Shown here piece by piece: positions 25,449 through 36,298 of a DNA stretch of 43,930 bases. The stretch covers positions 1-43,930 of the forward strand of contig NZ_JAUXOD010000100.1 of NCBI RefSeq assembly GCF_030682515.1, given 5' to 3'. The notes under the pieces were generated by a model. That model ran no database searches. It saw only the letters and a program-made list of their open reading frames with translations, and was not told the origin of the DNA. Numbering within the stretch: the stretch's first letter is position 1; each line of letters opens with the position of its first letter. The stretch comes from Hoeflea sp. GTDB taxonomy: Bacteria; Pseudomonadota; Alphaproteobacteria; Rhizobiales; Rhizobiaceae. A program made the translations under genes and the position numbers.

Positions 25449-26561
25449 ATGTCCGCACCGCGGATTCGCCCTGCCGTCCTGTCCGACATCGATGCGCTCG
25501 AGGCGATCGAGACCGCCGTGTTTGAGACCGACCGGATATCCCGCCGCTCGTTCCGCACGCTGATCGACCGGCCGACCGCCGAGACCCTCGTCATCGAGGC
25601 GGAAGGCCGGATCCAGGGCTACGCCATGATCCTGTTTCGCGCCGGCGCGGCATTGGCCCGCCTCTATTCGCTCGCCGTCGTGCCCGGCCAGGTGGGCAAG
25701 GGCTACGGCCGGGCGCTGCTTGCCGCCGCCGAGAAGGCCGCGATGGATCACGACCGGATCCTGCTCAGGCTCGAAGTGCGCGAGGACAACACGGGCGCGA
25801 TCGCGCTCTACAAGAGTGCGTCCTACCGCCATATCGGCCGCGTGGCCGACTACTACGCCGACGGCATGGCCGCACTCCGGTTCGAAAAACTGCTGCGCGG
25901 GCCGGACACGCCGAAGGGCAGCACCCCGTTCTATGAGCAATCCACGGATTTCACCTGCGGCGCCGCCTGCCTGCTGATGGCGCTGGCCCGGTTCCGCTCC
26001 ACCGACTTCCTCGATCCGGTCTGGGAAATCCGGCTGTGGCGCGAGGCCACCACCGTGTTCCTGCTGTCAGGCCCCGGCGGCTGCGAGCCGTTTGGCCTGG
26101 CCATGGTCGCCCGCGAGCACGGGCTCGATCCGGAGGTCTGGTGCTCGACCCAGGACATGCTGTTTCTGGAAACCGTGCGCGATCCGGAAAAGCGGCGGGT
26201 GATGGAACTGGCGCAGACCGATTTCCGCGCCCGCGTGGCCTCGGCCGGAACCCCGGTCCATTCGGAAGCCTTCACGCTCGACTGGCTGCGCGCCCGGCTG
26301 GCCGAGGGTCATGTCGCCCTCATCCTGGTCAGCGGCTACCTGATGATGGGCAAGAAGGTCCCCCACTGGGTTCTTGCCCACGGCGATGACGGTCGCCATA
26401 TCTTCGTCCATGACCCCTGGGTCGAGGACGAGGTCGGCGAAACCGTCGCCGACGCCGCCAATATCCCGGTCCCCTATGCCGTGTTCGACCGGATCGCCCG
26501 TTTCGGCCGGTCGGGCCTGCGCGCCGCCGTTCTTGTCAAGGGAAAAGCCCCCCATGTCTGA
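25449..26561 (+). CDS. GNAT acetyltransferase fused to C39-like cysteine peptidase
   Basis: The protein has 370 residues in two domains. Residues 4-148 are a RimI-like GNAT with the acetyl-CoA loop QVGKGYGRAL (81-90) and NTGAIALYKSASY. Residues 158-366 are a peptidase C39-like domain with Q164, C170 in FTCGAAC, H306 in VPHWVLAH and D322 in FVHDPW, matching the Gln-Cys-His-Asp order of papain-fold C39 peptidases, so it looks catalytically complete. No membrane helix or ABC exporter is attached, unlike bacteriocin C39 proteins. Its last eight bases overlap the ATP-grasp gene, so both are made together. I infer N-terminal acetylation and cleavage of a peptide or protein. The target is not visible. 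Confidence 0.88.
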   Translation: MSAPRIRPAVLSDIDALEAIETAVFETDRISRRSFRTLIDRPTAETLVIEAEGRIQGYAMILFRAGAALARLYSLAVVPGQVGKGYGRALLAAAEKAAMDHDRILLRLEVREDNTGAIALYKSASYRHIGRVADYYADGMAALRFEKLLRGPDTPKGSTPFYEQSTDFTCGAACLLMALARFRSTDFLDPVWEIRLWREATTVFLLSGPGGCEPFGLAMVAREHGLDPEVWCSTQDMLFLETVRDPEKRRVMELAQTDFRARVASAGTPVHSEAFTLDWLRARLAEGHVALILVSGYLMMGKKVPHWVLAHGDDGRHIFVHDPWVEDEVGETVADAANIPVPYAVFDRIARFGRSGLRAAVLVKGKAPHV

Positions 26562-28011
26562 TTGGATCATCCTGTCCACCGCGCTCACCGGCTTCGATCA
26601 CGCCGCCACCAAGCACAAGGTGCTGTCGACCCGCGACTACCTCGCCCGGCCGGAGCTGTTTCGCGGCGCGCGGCCCAACATCATCAACCTGTCGCGCTCC
26701 TACACCTACCAGAGCCGCGGCTACTACGCCTCGCTGCTCGCGGCCGCGCGCGGCCAGCGGGTGATTCCCTCGGTCGAGACCCTCATTGATCTCTCGGCCC
26801 GCAAGCTGCACGAGAACGCCATTCCCGAGTTGGAGGATTCCTTCAACAAATCGCTCCGCGAACACAGCGCCGCGCCCGTGCCGACAAGGCTGCGCGTGTT
26901 CTTCGGCACCAGCACGGATGCGCGCTTCGAGCGCTTCTGCCGGCTGCTGTTTGACTGGTTCCGCGCGCCCATCCTCGAGCTCAGCATCAAGCCGGGCGCA
27001 TGGTTCTCGATCTCCAAGATCGCGCTTCTGCCGGTGAGCAAGCTCGATGGCGCCGATCGCGAGGCCTTCTTCCAGGCCATGGCGCGCTACACCGCGCGTC
27101 AGTGGAAGGACGCCAAATCCCGGGCGCCGGCGCGCTATTCCTTCGCCACCCTGGTCGATCCGCAGGAGGCCCTGCCGCCCTCGACCATCGACAGCCTCAA
27201 GCACTGGTCGCGGATCGCCGCGCGCATGGGCGTCTCGGTCGAGCCGATCACCCGCAAGGACCTGCCGCGGCTCGCCAATTTCGACGCCCTGTTCATCCGC
27301 GAAACCACCTCGATCTCCAACCACACCTACCGCTTCGCCCGGCGCGCCCAGCAGGAGGGCATGCCGGTGATCGACGACCCGGTGTCGATGATCCGCTGCA
27401 CCAACAAGGTCTATCTCGACGAGCTGATGGCATCCAACGGCATCCCGGTGCCCAAGACCGTGATGCTGATCGGTCCGGAGGATTTTCAGCGCGCCGCCGA
27501 TCTCCTGGGGTTCCCGATGGTGCTGAAAGTTCCTGATTCCTCGTTCTCGCGCGGCGTGTCCAAGGTTGCCAGCATGGACGAGTTGAAGGCGCTGGCCGGC
27601 GCCTGGCTGCATGATTCCGAAGTGCTGATCGCGCAGAAATTCATGCCGACCAAGTTCGACTGGCGCATCGGCGTGCTGGGTGGCAAGCCGCTGTTCGCGG
27701 TGCAGTACCTGATGGCCAAGAAGCACTGGCAGATCGTCAAGCACGACACCGGCGGCAAGCCGCTGGAAGGCGGGTTCAAGTCCTTTTCGCTGGCGCAGGT
27801 GCCGCCCCTGGTGCTCGACACCGGCCTTCGCGCCGCCTGCTCGGTGGGCGACGGGCTCTACGGCGTCGACCTCAAGGAGACCGATGACGGGGTCTTCGTC
27901 ATCGAGGTCAACGACAATCCCAATCTCGAGCACGGCGTCGAGGACGCGGCGGAAAAGGACGAGGTCTGGATCAGGCTCACCAACTGGTTCATCGAACGGA
28001 TCGCCACGTGA
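26554..28011 (+). CDS. RimK-like ATP-grasp ligase with RLAN-type N-terminal domain
   Basis: The protein has 485 residues from ATG 26554. The N-terminal 160 residues, with FDHAATKHKVLSTRDYL and INLSRSYTYQSRGYYASLLA, fit the RLAN domain that precedes some RimK-like enzymes. Residues 285-475 are the ATP-grasp, with PKTVMLI, VLKVPDSSFSRGV as the ATP loop and metal ligands in VDLKET (D439) and IEVNDNPN (E451, N453). Such enzymes form amide bonds, adding amino acids, often glutamate, to a carboxyl end. RimK itself modifies ribosomal protein S6, but this domain layout and the coupled GNAT-peptidase argue for a different target. About 1.5 times the length of RimK. Confidence 0.88.
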   Translation: MSDWIILSTALTGFDHAATKHKVLSTRDYLARPELFRGARPNIINLSRSYTYQSRGYYASLLAAARGQRVIPSVETLIDLSARKLHENAIPELEDSFNKSLREHSAAPVPTRLRVFFGTSTDARFERFCRLLFDWFRAPILELSIKPGAWFSISKIALLPVSKLDGADREAFFQAMARYTARQWKDAKSRAPARYSFATLVDPQEALPPSTIDSLKHWSRIAARMGVSVEPITRKDLPRLANFDALFIRETTSISNHTYRFARRAQQEGMPVIDDPVSMIRCTNKVYLDELMASNGIPVPKTVMLIGPEDFQRAADLLGFPMVLKVPDSSFSRGVSKVASMDELKALAGAWLHDSEVLIAQKFMPTKFDWRIGVLGGKPLFAVQYLMAKKHWQIVKHDTGGKPLEGGFKSFSLAQVPPLVLDTGLRAACSVGDGLYGVDLKETDDGVFVIEVNDNPNLEHGVEDAAEKDEVWIRLTNWFIERIAT

Positions 28012-35123: not shown

Positions 35124-35807
35124 GTGCTGACGCTCGCGCTTGATTGTTCCACCCGGTATTGCTGCGCGGCCGTCCTTGATACCGGCACCGACCACATCCT
35201 TGCCGCGGCCAGCCCCGATATCGGGCGCGGCCATGCCGAGCAACTGCCGGCCATTGTCGCGGGAGTCCTTGCCCAGGCCGGCTTGGATCTCAAGGATATC
35301 GGGCGCATTGGCGTGACCATCGGCCCGGGCTCCTTCGCCGGCATCCGTGTCGGCGTGGCCTTCGCCCGCGGACTGGCCCTGGCGCTCGGCGCGCCCTGCA
35401 TTGGCGTCGGTTCACTGGAAGCCATCGCGATCCCCGCGGCGCGCCAGGCCGGCCAGCCGGTGATGGCGGTGCTCGACGCCAGGCGCGATCATGTCTGGGC
35501 TATCCTGGTTGACGTCGATGGCAGGCCGCTTGTGCCCGCCGCTGAATTCACGCCCGCTGCCGCAGCCCGCCTGGCTGCAGACAGGGGCTGCGGCCTCATC
35601 GGCAGCGGCGCGGCGCTACTGGCCGAGATCGATGGCTCGCTTGCCGCGCGCATCATCGCCGGGTCCGCGGTGCCCGCGATCGAGGATGTGGCGCGCCTCG
35701 CCGCCCGTCTCGATCCCGCCGCCAATCCCCCCGAGCCGCGCTATCTGCGCGAGGCGGACGCCAAGCCGCAGGCGGGCTTCGCCGTGGCGCACGAGGGTGC
35801 GGTCTGA
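35124..35807 (+). CDS. tsaB: tRNA t6A biosynthesis protein TsaB
   Basis: The protein has 227 residues from a GTG start. It is an ASKHA-fold partner of TsaD in threonylcarbamoyl-adenosine formation at tRNA position 37. It begins MLTLALDCSTRYCC, with GHAEQLPAIV and the GPGSFAGIRVGVAFARGLAL segment that is the family hallmark. It lacks catalysis of its own and stabilises the TsaD complex. Its stop shares one base with the rimI ATG (TGATG), the widespread tsaB-rimI pairing. Confidence 0.95.
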   Translation: MLTLALDCSTRYCCAAVLDTGTDHILAAASPDIGRGHAEQLPAIVAGVLAQAGLDLKDIGRIGVTIGPGSFAGIRVGVAFARGLALALGAPCIGVGSLEAIAIPAARQAGQPVMAVLDARRDHVWAILVDVDGRPLVPAAEFTPAAAARLAADRGCGLIGSGAALLAEIDGSLAARIIAGSAVPAIEDVARLAARLDPAANPPEPRYLREADAKPQAGFAVAHEGAV

Positions 35808-36298
35808 TGGTGTTTGACCTGTTCGGGCGCAAGCCCGATTGCCTCATTCTCGAGATCGCCATGGAGGACGCGCGCACCGCCTCGCGCCTTCATGGCGAAG
35901 CCTTTTCGCGCGCCTGGGGCGACGGCGAGTTCGAAAGCCTGATTTCCCAGCAATCCGTCTTCGGATTCCTGGCCTGCCCGGAAGGCCGCGCCCGCGACGC
36001 TGCCGCGGGGTTCGTGCTCTGCCGCGAGGCCGCCGGCGAGGCCGAGATCCTGTCGATCGGCATCTCGCCCAGACACCGCCGCAGCGGGCTCGGCTGGCGG
36101 CTGATGCGCAGCGCCATGCAGGAAGCCAGGCGGCGCGGCGCCGAGGAAATGTTCCTGGAAGTCGATGAAACCAATCTTGCGGCCGTTGAGATGTACCGCA
36201 AGCTGGATTTCGTCCAGGTCGGAGAACGGCGCGCCTATTATGCCCGCCCGGGCGAACAAGCCACGACAGCGCTTGTCATGCGCCGCGATCTTCGTTAG
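35807..36298 (+). CDS. rimI: ribosomal-protein-alanine N-acetyltransferase
   Basis: The protein has 163 residues of the GNAT fold with acetyl-CoA loop RRSGLGWRLM (91-100) and ETNLAAVEMYRKLDFVQVGERRAYY as the C-terminal signature. RimI acetylates the N-terminus of ribosomal protein S18 and perhaps others. It is coupled to tsaB and is followed after 67 bases by a Fur-family gene. It is distinct from the GNAT domain fused to a peptidase at 25449. Confidence 0.93.
   Translation: MVFDLFGRKPDCLILEIAMEDARTASRLHGEAFSRAWGDGEFESLISQQSVFGFLACPEGRARDAAAGFVLCREAAGEAEILSIGISPRHRRSGLGWRLMRSAMQEARRRGAEEMFLEVDETNLAAVEMYRKLDFVQVGERRAYYARPGEQATTALVMRRDLR

Follow-up and report, generated by a model that had tools for sequence, protein, structure and literature searches.

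The stretch of DNA considered here, which we call the window, comprises 43,930 nucleotides (positions 1 to 43,930 of contig NZ_JAUXOD010000100.1) from the α-proteobacterium Hoeflea sp., assembly GCF_030682515.1. It carries two genes, denoted gene A and gene B, of which the first encodes a GNAT acetyltransferase fused to a papain-like DUF3335 domain and the second an RLAN/ATP-grasp ligase (Table 1). An initial annotation had described three peptide-chemistry activities in two genes overlapping by eight bases, and listed seven catalytic residues; the overlap is confirmed in the sequence, the GNAT, DUF3335 (‘Peptidase_C39 like family’) and RLAN/RimK-like ATP-grasp domains all score above their Pfam cut-offs, which places gene A within the DUF3335 family and gene B among the RLAN ligases, and the residues (Q164, C170, H306 and D322 of gene A; D439, E451 and N453 of gene B) lie where they had been placed. 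The overlap is consistent with translational coupling of the two genes. For gene B the ATG at 26554 is preferred to the upstream TTG at 26374 given by the ORF (open reading frame) lister, because the proteins of relatives align from that ATG. Gene B is the single RLAN match found by profile search in its genome, and is 97% identical to the ligase of a Hoeflea metagenome-assembled genome and 91% and 94% identical to those of two Hoeflea strains.

Table 1. Coordinates of the acetyltransferase–peptidase and ligase genes and of their domains in the window.
Feature	Position	Strand	Evidence
Gene A: GNAT–DUF3335 (papain-like, C39-related) fusion, 370 amino acids	25449..26561	+	ATG ORF; Pfam; same fusion in 59/80 named ligase loci; AlphaFold model pLDDT 89.3
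GNAT domain of gene A, about residues 1-155, RimI/Ard1-like	25449..25913	+	PF00583, 54.4 bits (cut-off 20.7); E109, Y136 kept in 79/79 homologues
DUF3335 papain-like peptidase domain of gene A, residues 160-364	25926..26540	+	PF11814, 250.1 bits (cut-off 25); Q164, C170, H306, D322
8-base overlap of genes A and B	26554..26561	+	read from sequence
Gene B: RLAN/RimK-like ATP-grasp ligase, 485 amino acids	26554..28011	+	Pfam; AlphaFold model pLDDT 87.4, pTM 0.60
RLAN domain of gene B, residues 27-174, N-terminal to the ATP-grasp	26632..27075	+	PF14401, 140.6 bits (cut-off 25)
Pre-ATP-grasp and ATP-grasp region of gene B, residues 195-485	27136..28008	+	PF08443, 36.7 bits (cut-off 21); K325, Q361, D439, E451, N453, N455

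The constant unit at loci of this kind is the acetyltransferase together with the ligase, which form an almost invariable pair in two surveys. A named set holds the best 80 of at least 585 confirmed ligase matches and is weighted towards close relatives. The census is less biased; it draws on genomes sampled evenly from the class (142) and from the phylum Proteobacteria (299), which gave 74 distinct places with RLAN. One of these is the window, and the flanking DNA was read for the other 73. The two surveys overlap, sharing at least two pairs of identical or almost identical ligases (L077 with L248 and L094 with L040). In the named set a GNAT–DUF3335 fusion accompanies 59 ligases and GNAT alone 20, with neither in view in one (L123); in 77 of the 80 the partner is encoded upstream of the ligase and in the same direction, and in 65 of these 77 its distance from the ligase match is at most 20 bases in either direction. 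In L112 and L124 the partner is divergent, with a DUF2817 gene in between. A same-clade GNAT is the adjoining gene in 71 of the 73 census loci, and all 72 GNAT matches in ligase loci are genes no more than 311 bases from the ligase. The pair occurs in three gene orientations: in 48 loci the GNAT gene precedes the ligase on the same strand, in 20 it is divergent and in 3 it follows the ligase. The link thus appears to have survived rearrangement. By partner type, GNAT–DUF3335 genes are upstream on the same strand in 33 loci, divergent in 13 and downstream in 3, GNAT-only genes are upstream on the same strand in 14 and divergent in 7, and one locus (L211) has a GNAT-only gene upstream and a GNAT–DUF3335 gene on the opposite side of the ligase. 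The two census misses are L238, where the contig end cuts the locus, and L202, whose genome has its GNAT–DUF3335 gene elsewhere (L203). A ligase on a Pseudomonas aeruginosa plasmid has no GNAT near it.

The peptidase, on the other hand, is an accessory whose presence has changed many times. A fixed trio of activities was rejected on the finding that the partner GNAT lacks the peptidase part in 22/73 census loci and 20/80 named loci. DUF3335 gives no match at the search threshold in 17 of the 71 distinct RLAN genomes, all 17 of which retain a GNAT beside the ligase. Listed completeness is at least 94% for 15 of these genomes, 74% for G127 and 76% for G307. It is the 22 loci and these 17 genomes taken together which lead us to a GNAT–ligase pair with an optional peptidase. 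The separation of the two genes that the initial annotation had regarded as a possible objection is therefore not seen for the GNAT and is frequent for the peptidase. RLAN occurs in 56 genomes of the phylum sample, DUF3335 in 47 and both in 46 (32, 26 and 25, respectively, when counted over 154 genera), and the corresponding figures for the class sample are 18, 12 and 10; the hypergeometric p for this co-occurrence is tiny, in a calculation that ignores shared ancestry. In the two genomes with DUF3335 and without RLAN, no such GNAT adjoins DUF3335 (L048 and L049), and GNAT–DUF3335 genes unlinked from the ligase are found in genomes having both (L203 and L204). On a ligase tree of 155 rows, viz. 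79 named, 72 census, the window and L130–L132 (L034 and L115 were dropped), labelling the peptidase-bearing rows against all others requires no fewer than 25 changes of state, and strongly supported branches make 18 of these unavoidable; the tree was made by a quick method, whose support values are less trustworthy near long rows, and gain and loss are indistinguishable on it. Closely related ligases may differ in the presence of the peptidase, e.g. L059 versus L060.

Some genomes hold more than one copy of these genes. In three two-ligase genomes, G192 (L208 and L209), G196 and G277 (L213–L216), one ligase copy is divergent from a GNAT–DUF3335 gene and the other from GNAT alone. Additional DUF3335 copies are located off the ligase contig in G327 (contig C15) and G403 (contig C39), two genomes that belong to the family of the window's own. 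Ligases with long extra C-terminal tails also occur (L032:10056-11774 and L043:5632-7308), and the tails have no Pfam match.

The named catalytic residues are conserved far beyond chance, and the loss of them that had been envisaged as an objection did not occur. Each of Q164, C170, H306 and D322 is kept in all 59 named homologues having the peptidase part, as in a papain-like active site. In the ligase, K325 and Q361 are invariant (80/80) and N455 is kept in 79/80. D439, E451 and N453 are likewise each kept in 79/80, and their single exception is a gap in L115, a ligase with a split match. E109 and Y136 of the GNAT domain are kept in every homologue compared, and E109 and the tyrosine pair presumably correspond to the catalytic glutamate and to the tyrosines that bind the peptide in RimI and enzymes of the Naa type. 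The solved folds nearest to the gene A model are the RimI/Ard1 N-terminal acetylases, and those nearest to the gene B model are the LysX/ArgX/RimK C-terminal amino-acid ligases; these lists of matches are taken up by the GNAT and ATP-grasp domains, respectively, and not by the peptidase or RLAN.

Neither protein reaches the cut-offs of the following families. Gene A scores 67.5 bits against 86.4 for RimI (TIGR01575), 12.6 against 22 for the leader-removing C39 peptidases (PF03412), and a weak 17.6 bits for Guanylate_cyc_2, again below the family cut-off. Gene B scores 83.1 against 143.4 for RimK (TIGR00768) and 84.4 against 275.6 for LysX (TIGR02144). For the synthetase of N-acetylglutaminylglutamine amide (NAGGN), in which GNAT and ATP-grasp share one chain (TIGR03103, cut-off 569), gene A gives 18 bits from its GNAT part alone, and the model is absent from the best 25 of 50 family matches of gene B. 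Among single-sequence matches, the GNAT domain finds phosphinothricin acetyltransferases (the top match) and tabtoxin-resistance acetyltransferases. The window also contains tsaB followed by a RimI-like gene (35124-36298, the latter at 35807-36298). This RimI-like gene, roughly 9 kb away from the GNAT fusion, is a RimI candidate in its own right and scores 80.4 bits, slightly below the RimI cut-off.

The flanks of the unit are ordinary, with a membrane protein of the sulfate-transporter family upstream on the opposite strand and GlnD and MurJ downstream. The initial annotation had noted no precursor peptide nearby and had proposed a conserved-neighbour search for a small third gene. This search, a clustering of neighbours over 99 loci of which the largest 45 clusters are listed, yielded neither a small third gene nor a precursor. 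Nor did the two flanking gaps, where small ORFs of at least 20 amino acids had no tblastn match at E < 0.01 outside Hoeflea among 80 related loci, once matches inside gene A or antisense to gene B were set aside.

Two other families do recur, DUF2817 in the fetched stretch of 17 of 160 loci scanned and DUF155 in 13 (18 loci together), using scanning profiles that were built from seven and six of those same loci. In some of these the genes have same-strand order and short gaps (e.g. L204, L206, L231, L243, L112 and L124), and in several loci of one family, coded f153, DUF2817 is convergent. The motifs HxxE, DLNRN, DxHxG and LEFGT are invariant in seven DUF2817 proteins, a pattern which we take to be that of the M14 zinc carboxypeptidases, and DUF2817 is thus a candidate second exopeptidase-like partner, M14-like, near the GNAT and ligase genes; a sequence search of one DUF2817 protein against solved structures gave no relative (best E 0.26). 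DUF155 is the RMND1 family, which presumably has a link to translation. Of the 40 genomes that DUF2817 matches over its full length, 25 have RLAN, a count that leaves out 24 of 64 listed genomes with partial matches. RLAN is also present in 19 of 31 genomes with DUF155, and both figures are swayed by f153.

Other neighbours and settings were considered and set aside. A cluster of SDR oxidoreductases (8 loci, annotated in L130) was taken as a common family met by chance, because its members lie at scattered distances, and an asparagine-synthase-like gene directly 3′ of the GNAT–ligase pair (L197:7262-9337) was likewise judged to be there by chance, since L195 and L199, of the same genus code, are without it. 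The unit was rejected as a defence system, there being no PADLOC match, as phage cargo, with none of six matching phage records covering 80% of the ligase, and as plasmid cargo, with 11 of 51 matching plasmid records doing so, 7 of these 11 being from Azospirillum and at least 1.7 Mb in size. In Legionella adelaidensis (L131:41-3232) genes for GCS2 and N-formylglutamate amidohydrolase come after an RLAN ligase, with no GNAT in view; the ligase sits at the start of the record, so that its upstream side is out of view, and the record, named as a plasmid, includes fur and dapF and is perhaps a piece of chromosome.

The genome of the window also encodes the NAGGN system. On contig C68 (L261:499-3332) the NAGGN synthetase, a GNAT–ATP-grasp fusion (TIGR03103, 894.8 bits against 569), is adjoined by the NAGGN M42 peptidase (TIGR03106, 562.6 bits against 397.75). 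Another genome, G146, has on one strand (L267:3796-14809) the NAGGN synthetase with neighbours including two unknown genes (167 and 147 amino acids), the M42 gene and an unknown gene of 249 amino acids; GNAT–DUF3335, DUF2817 and DUF155 genes follow on the same strand, some 1.7 kb beyond the M42 gene.

Our preferred reading, to which we assign a probability of roughly 0.45, is that the GNAT–ligase pair builds an acetyl-capped peptide, which is edited or recycled by the papain-like part where that is present. To judge by its fold and residues, the ligase, with its RLAN and ATP-grasp domains, would consume ATP in extending an amino acid or short peptide at the carboxyl end with a further amino acid. 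The RimI/Ard1-like GNAT would acetylate the free α-amino end, and the papain-like domain fused to it would, where present, cleave the product and so allow trimming or recycling. Such a peptide is the best fit because a GNAT of the α-amino type and a ligase of the carboxyl-extending type are nearly always together and seldom with others. The NAGGN enzymes may be seen as a precedent of the same logic in the same cell. A small modified peptide, one of the two products suggested by the initial annotation, is thereby retained as the best explanation, and the other, an edited protein C-terminus, as its chief rival. We would also raise, as a more tentative idea, that the pair represents a second class of acetyl-capped peptide synthesis widespread in Proteobacteria, in which a core of RimI-like acetylase and RLAN ligase is served by lineage-swapped turnover enzymes (DUF3335 and the M14-like DUF2817) and a new peptide would serve in the cytosol as a solute, store or signal, alongside NAGGN and distinct from it.

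Several observations weigh against an acetyl-capped peptide. The nearest solved relatives, viz. RimI, Ard1, RimK and LysX/ArgX, act on protein ends, a pattern which suits a protein target equally well or better. No widely recurring transporter, precursor or amino-acid biosynthesis gene appears among the 45 largest neighbour clusters, and no GNAT is nearby in L202 of the census or, outside it, in L123, L130 and L131. The DUF2817 and DUF155 genes are both absent from the window's own genome, and 13 of the 18 loci that have them come from the single family f153. As for NAGGN, the G146 arrangement is found in one of the 8 genomes with both systems, its RLAN ligase lies about 2.1 Mb from the NAGGN genes beside another GNAT, and the synthetase co-occurs with RLAN at chance level (8/28 against 56/299 genomes, hypergeometric p 0.13).

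The main rival is a Rim system of RLAN type that edits protein ends, in which the ligase would attach amino acids to a host protein at its C-terminus, the GNAT would acetylate a protein N-terminus, and the peptidase would remove the additions as RimB does for RimK. We consider this somewhat doubtful. The nearest folds described above suit it, and so does the recurrence of DUF155, if its presumed link to translation holds. The pairing of a ligase with an editing protease is itself proven in RimK–RimB, where RimB removes the additions made by RimK and RimBK hybrids exist, according to the part of PMC11957791 available; the same part shows that RimK–RimB edits a protein tail while also producing free polyglutamate. 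The accessible portion of PMC12239564 likewise gives the RloABC operon of P. aeruginosa, with a protease and an ATP-grasp protein, a role in osmotic stress. Against protein editing, no target gene recurs beside the unit among the listed clusters, the scores fall below the RimI and RimK cut-offs, and acetylation of S18 has a candidate of its own in the tsaB-linked RimI-like gene of the window; protein editing also gives no reason for activities at the two termini of one protein to be kept together.

The remaining explanations give the unit other kinds of product. It is unlikely that the papain-like domain is a transferase which passes the ligase product to a small acceptor, in the manner of BtrH or phytochelatin synthase, with the GNAT adding a protecting cap: DUF3335 is closely related to Guanylate_cyc_2 and is treated in the same section as BtrH_N and phytochelatin synthase in the portion of PMC10318531 available, and gene A has its weak Guanylate_cyc_2 match, but the absence of the domain from so many partner GNATs would be odd for a final coupling step. 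Less probable still is a RiPP-like (ribosomally synthesised and post-translationally modified peptide) pathway, in which a precursor encoded elsewhere would receive modifications at its two ends and be cleaved by the peptidase. True C39 peptidases do cleave double-glycine leaders off exported peptides, as that portion of PMC10318531 also states, yet the PF03412 score is below cut-off, the gaps flanking the unit have no conserved small ORF, no exporter is found among the widely recurring neighbour clusters listed, and the peptidase is optional. We attach equally little weight to detoxification or resistance, whereby the GNAT would acetylate an amino-acid-like toxin and the ligase conjugate it, an idea that derives from the phosphinothricin and tabtoxin-resistance enzymes among the GNAT matches.

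RLAN ligases occur in nearly one in five of the Proteobacteria sampled, yet the literature searched gave them no assigned role. The two-enzyme core with its optional peptidase shows which genes belong together, and makes the GNAT-only lineages natural comparisons. Should the product be a new acetylated peptide, a further class of bacterial metabolite would be gained; should the target be a protein, there would be a second control resembling Rim.

Considering how the unit relates to what has been published, the initial annotation's claim of no known substrate agrees with our literature searches, which gave no function for the pair and found no functional study of it, the 2009 survey of Iyer et al. 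lying outside that search; the pair is not described in the available parts of PMC4431377, PMC2922099 and PMC7824862. The same annotation's ‘undescribed system’ was too strong, as the GNAT–DUF3335 fusion is already in print in the accessible portion of PMC10318531, which cites Iyer et al., and the PF11814 and PF14401 families hold the same domains and the same fusion as the window. The optional status of the peptidase and the near-constant GNAT–ligase pair are results of the present analysis, both of which the 2009 survey may already contain. The RimA–RimB–RimK system of Pseudomonas and RloABC likewise combine an ATP-grasp protein with a protease, but RimB and RloA are retropepsin-like and the peptidase of the window is papain-like, so that the unit is not of RimABK type, and no GNAT is mentioned for either system in the parts of PMC11957791 and PMC12239564 available, whereas the window unit has one. 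Its ligase differs from RimK in carrying RLAN as well as in its score, and stands well below the cut-off for LysX, which with ArgX works with the carrier LysW; its GNAT differs from the RimI/Ard1 N-terminal acetyltransferases in score, and the separate RimI-like gene lies in the same window. The NAGGN osmolyte system (TIGR03104 amidotransferase, TIGR03103 and TIGR03106) also brings together GNAT, ATP-grasp and peptidase, but in that system the fusion partner of the GNAT is the ligase rather than the peptidase, the ligase resembles cyanophycin synthetase and has no RLAN, the peptidase is a metallopeptidase, and an amidotransferase is present, whereas none adjoins the window unit. Falling below the cut-offs of RimK, LysX, RimI, the NAGGN synthetase and the true C39 peptidases, the unit may nevertheless work in the way that the NAGGN or Rim systems do.

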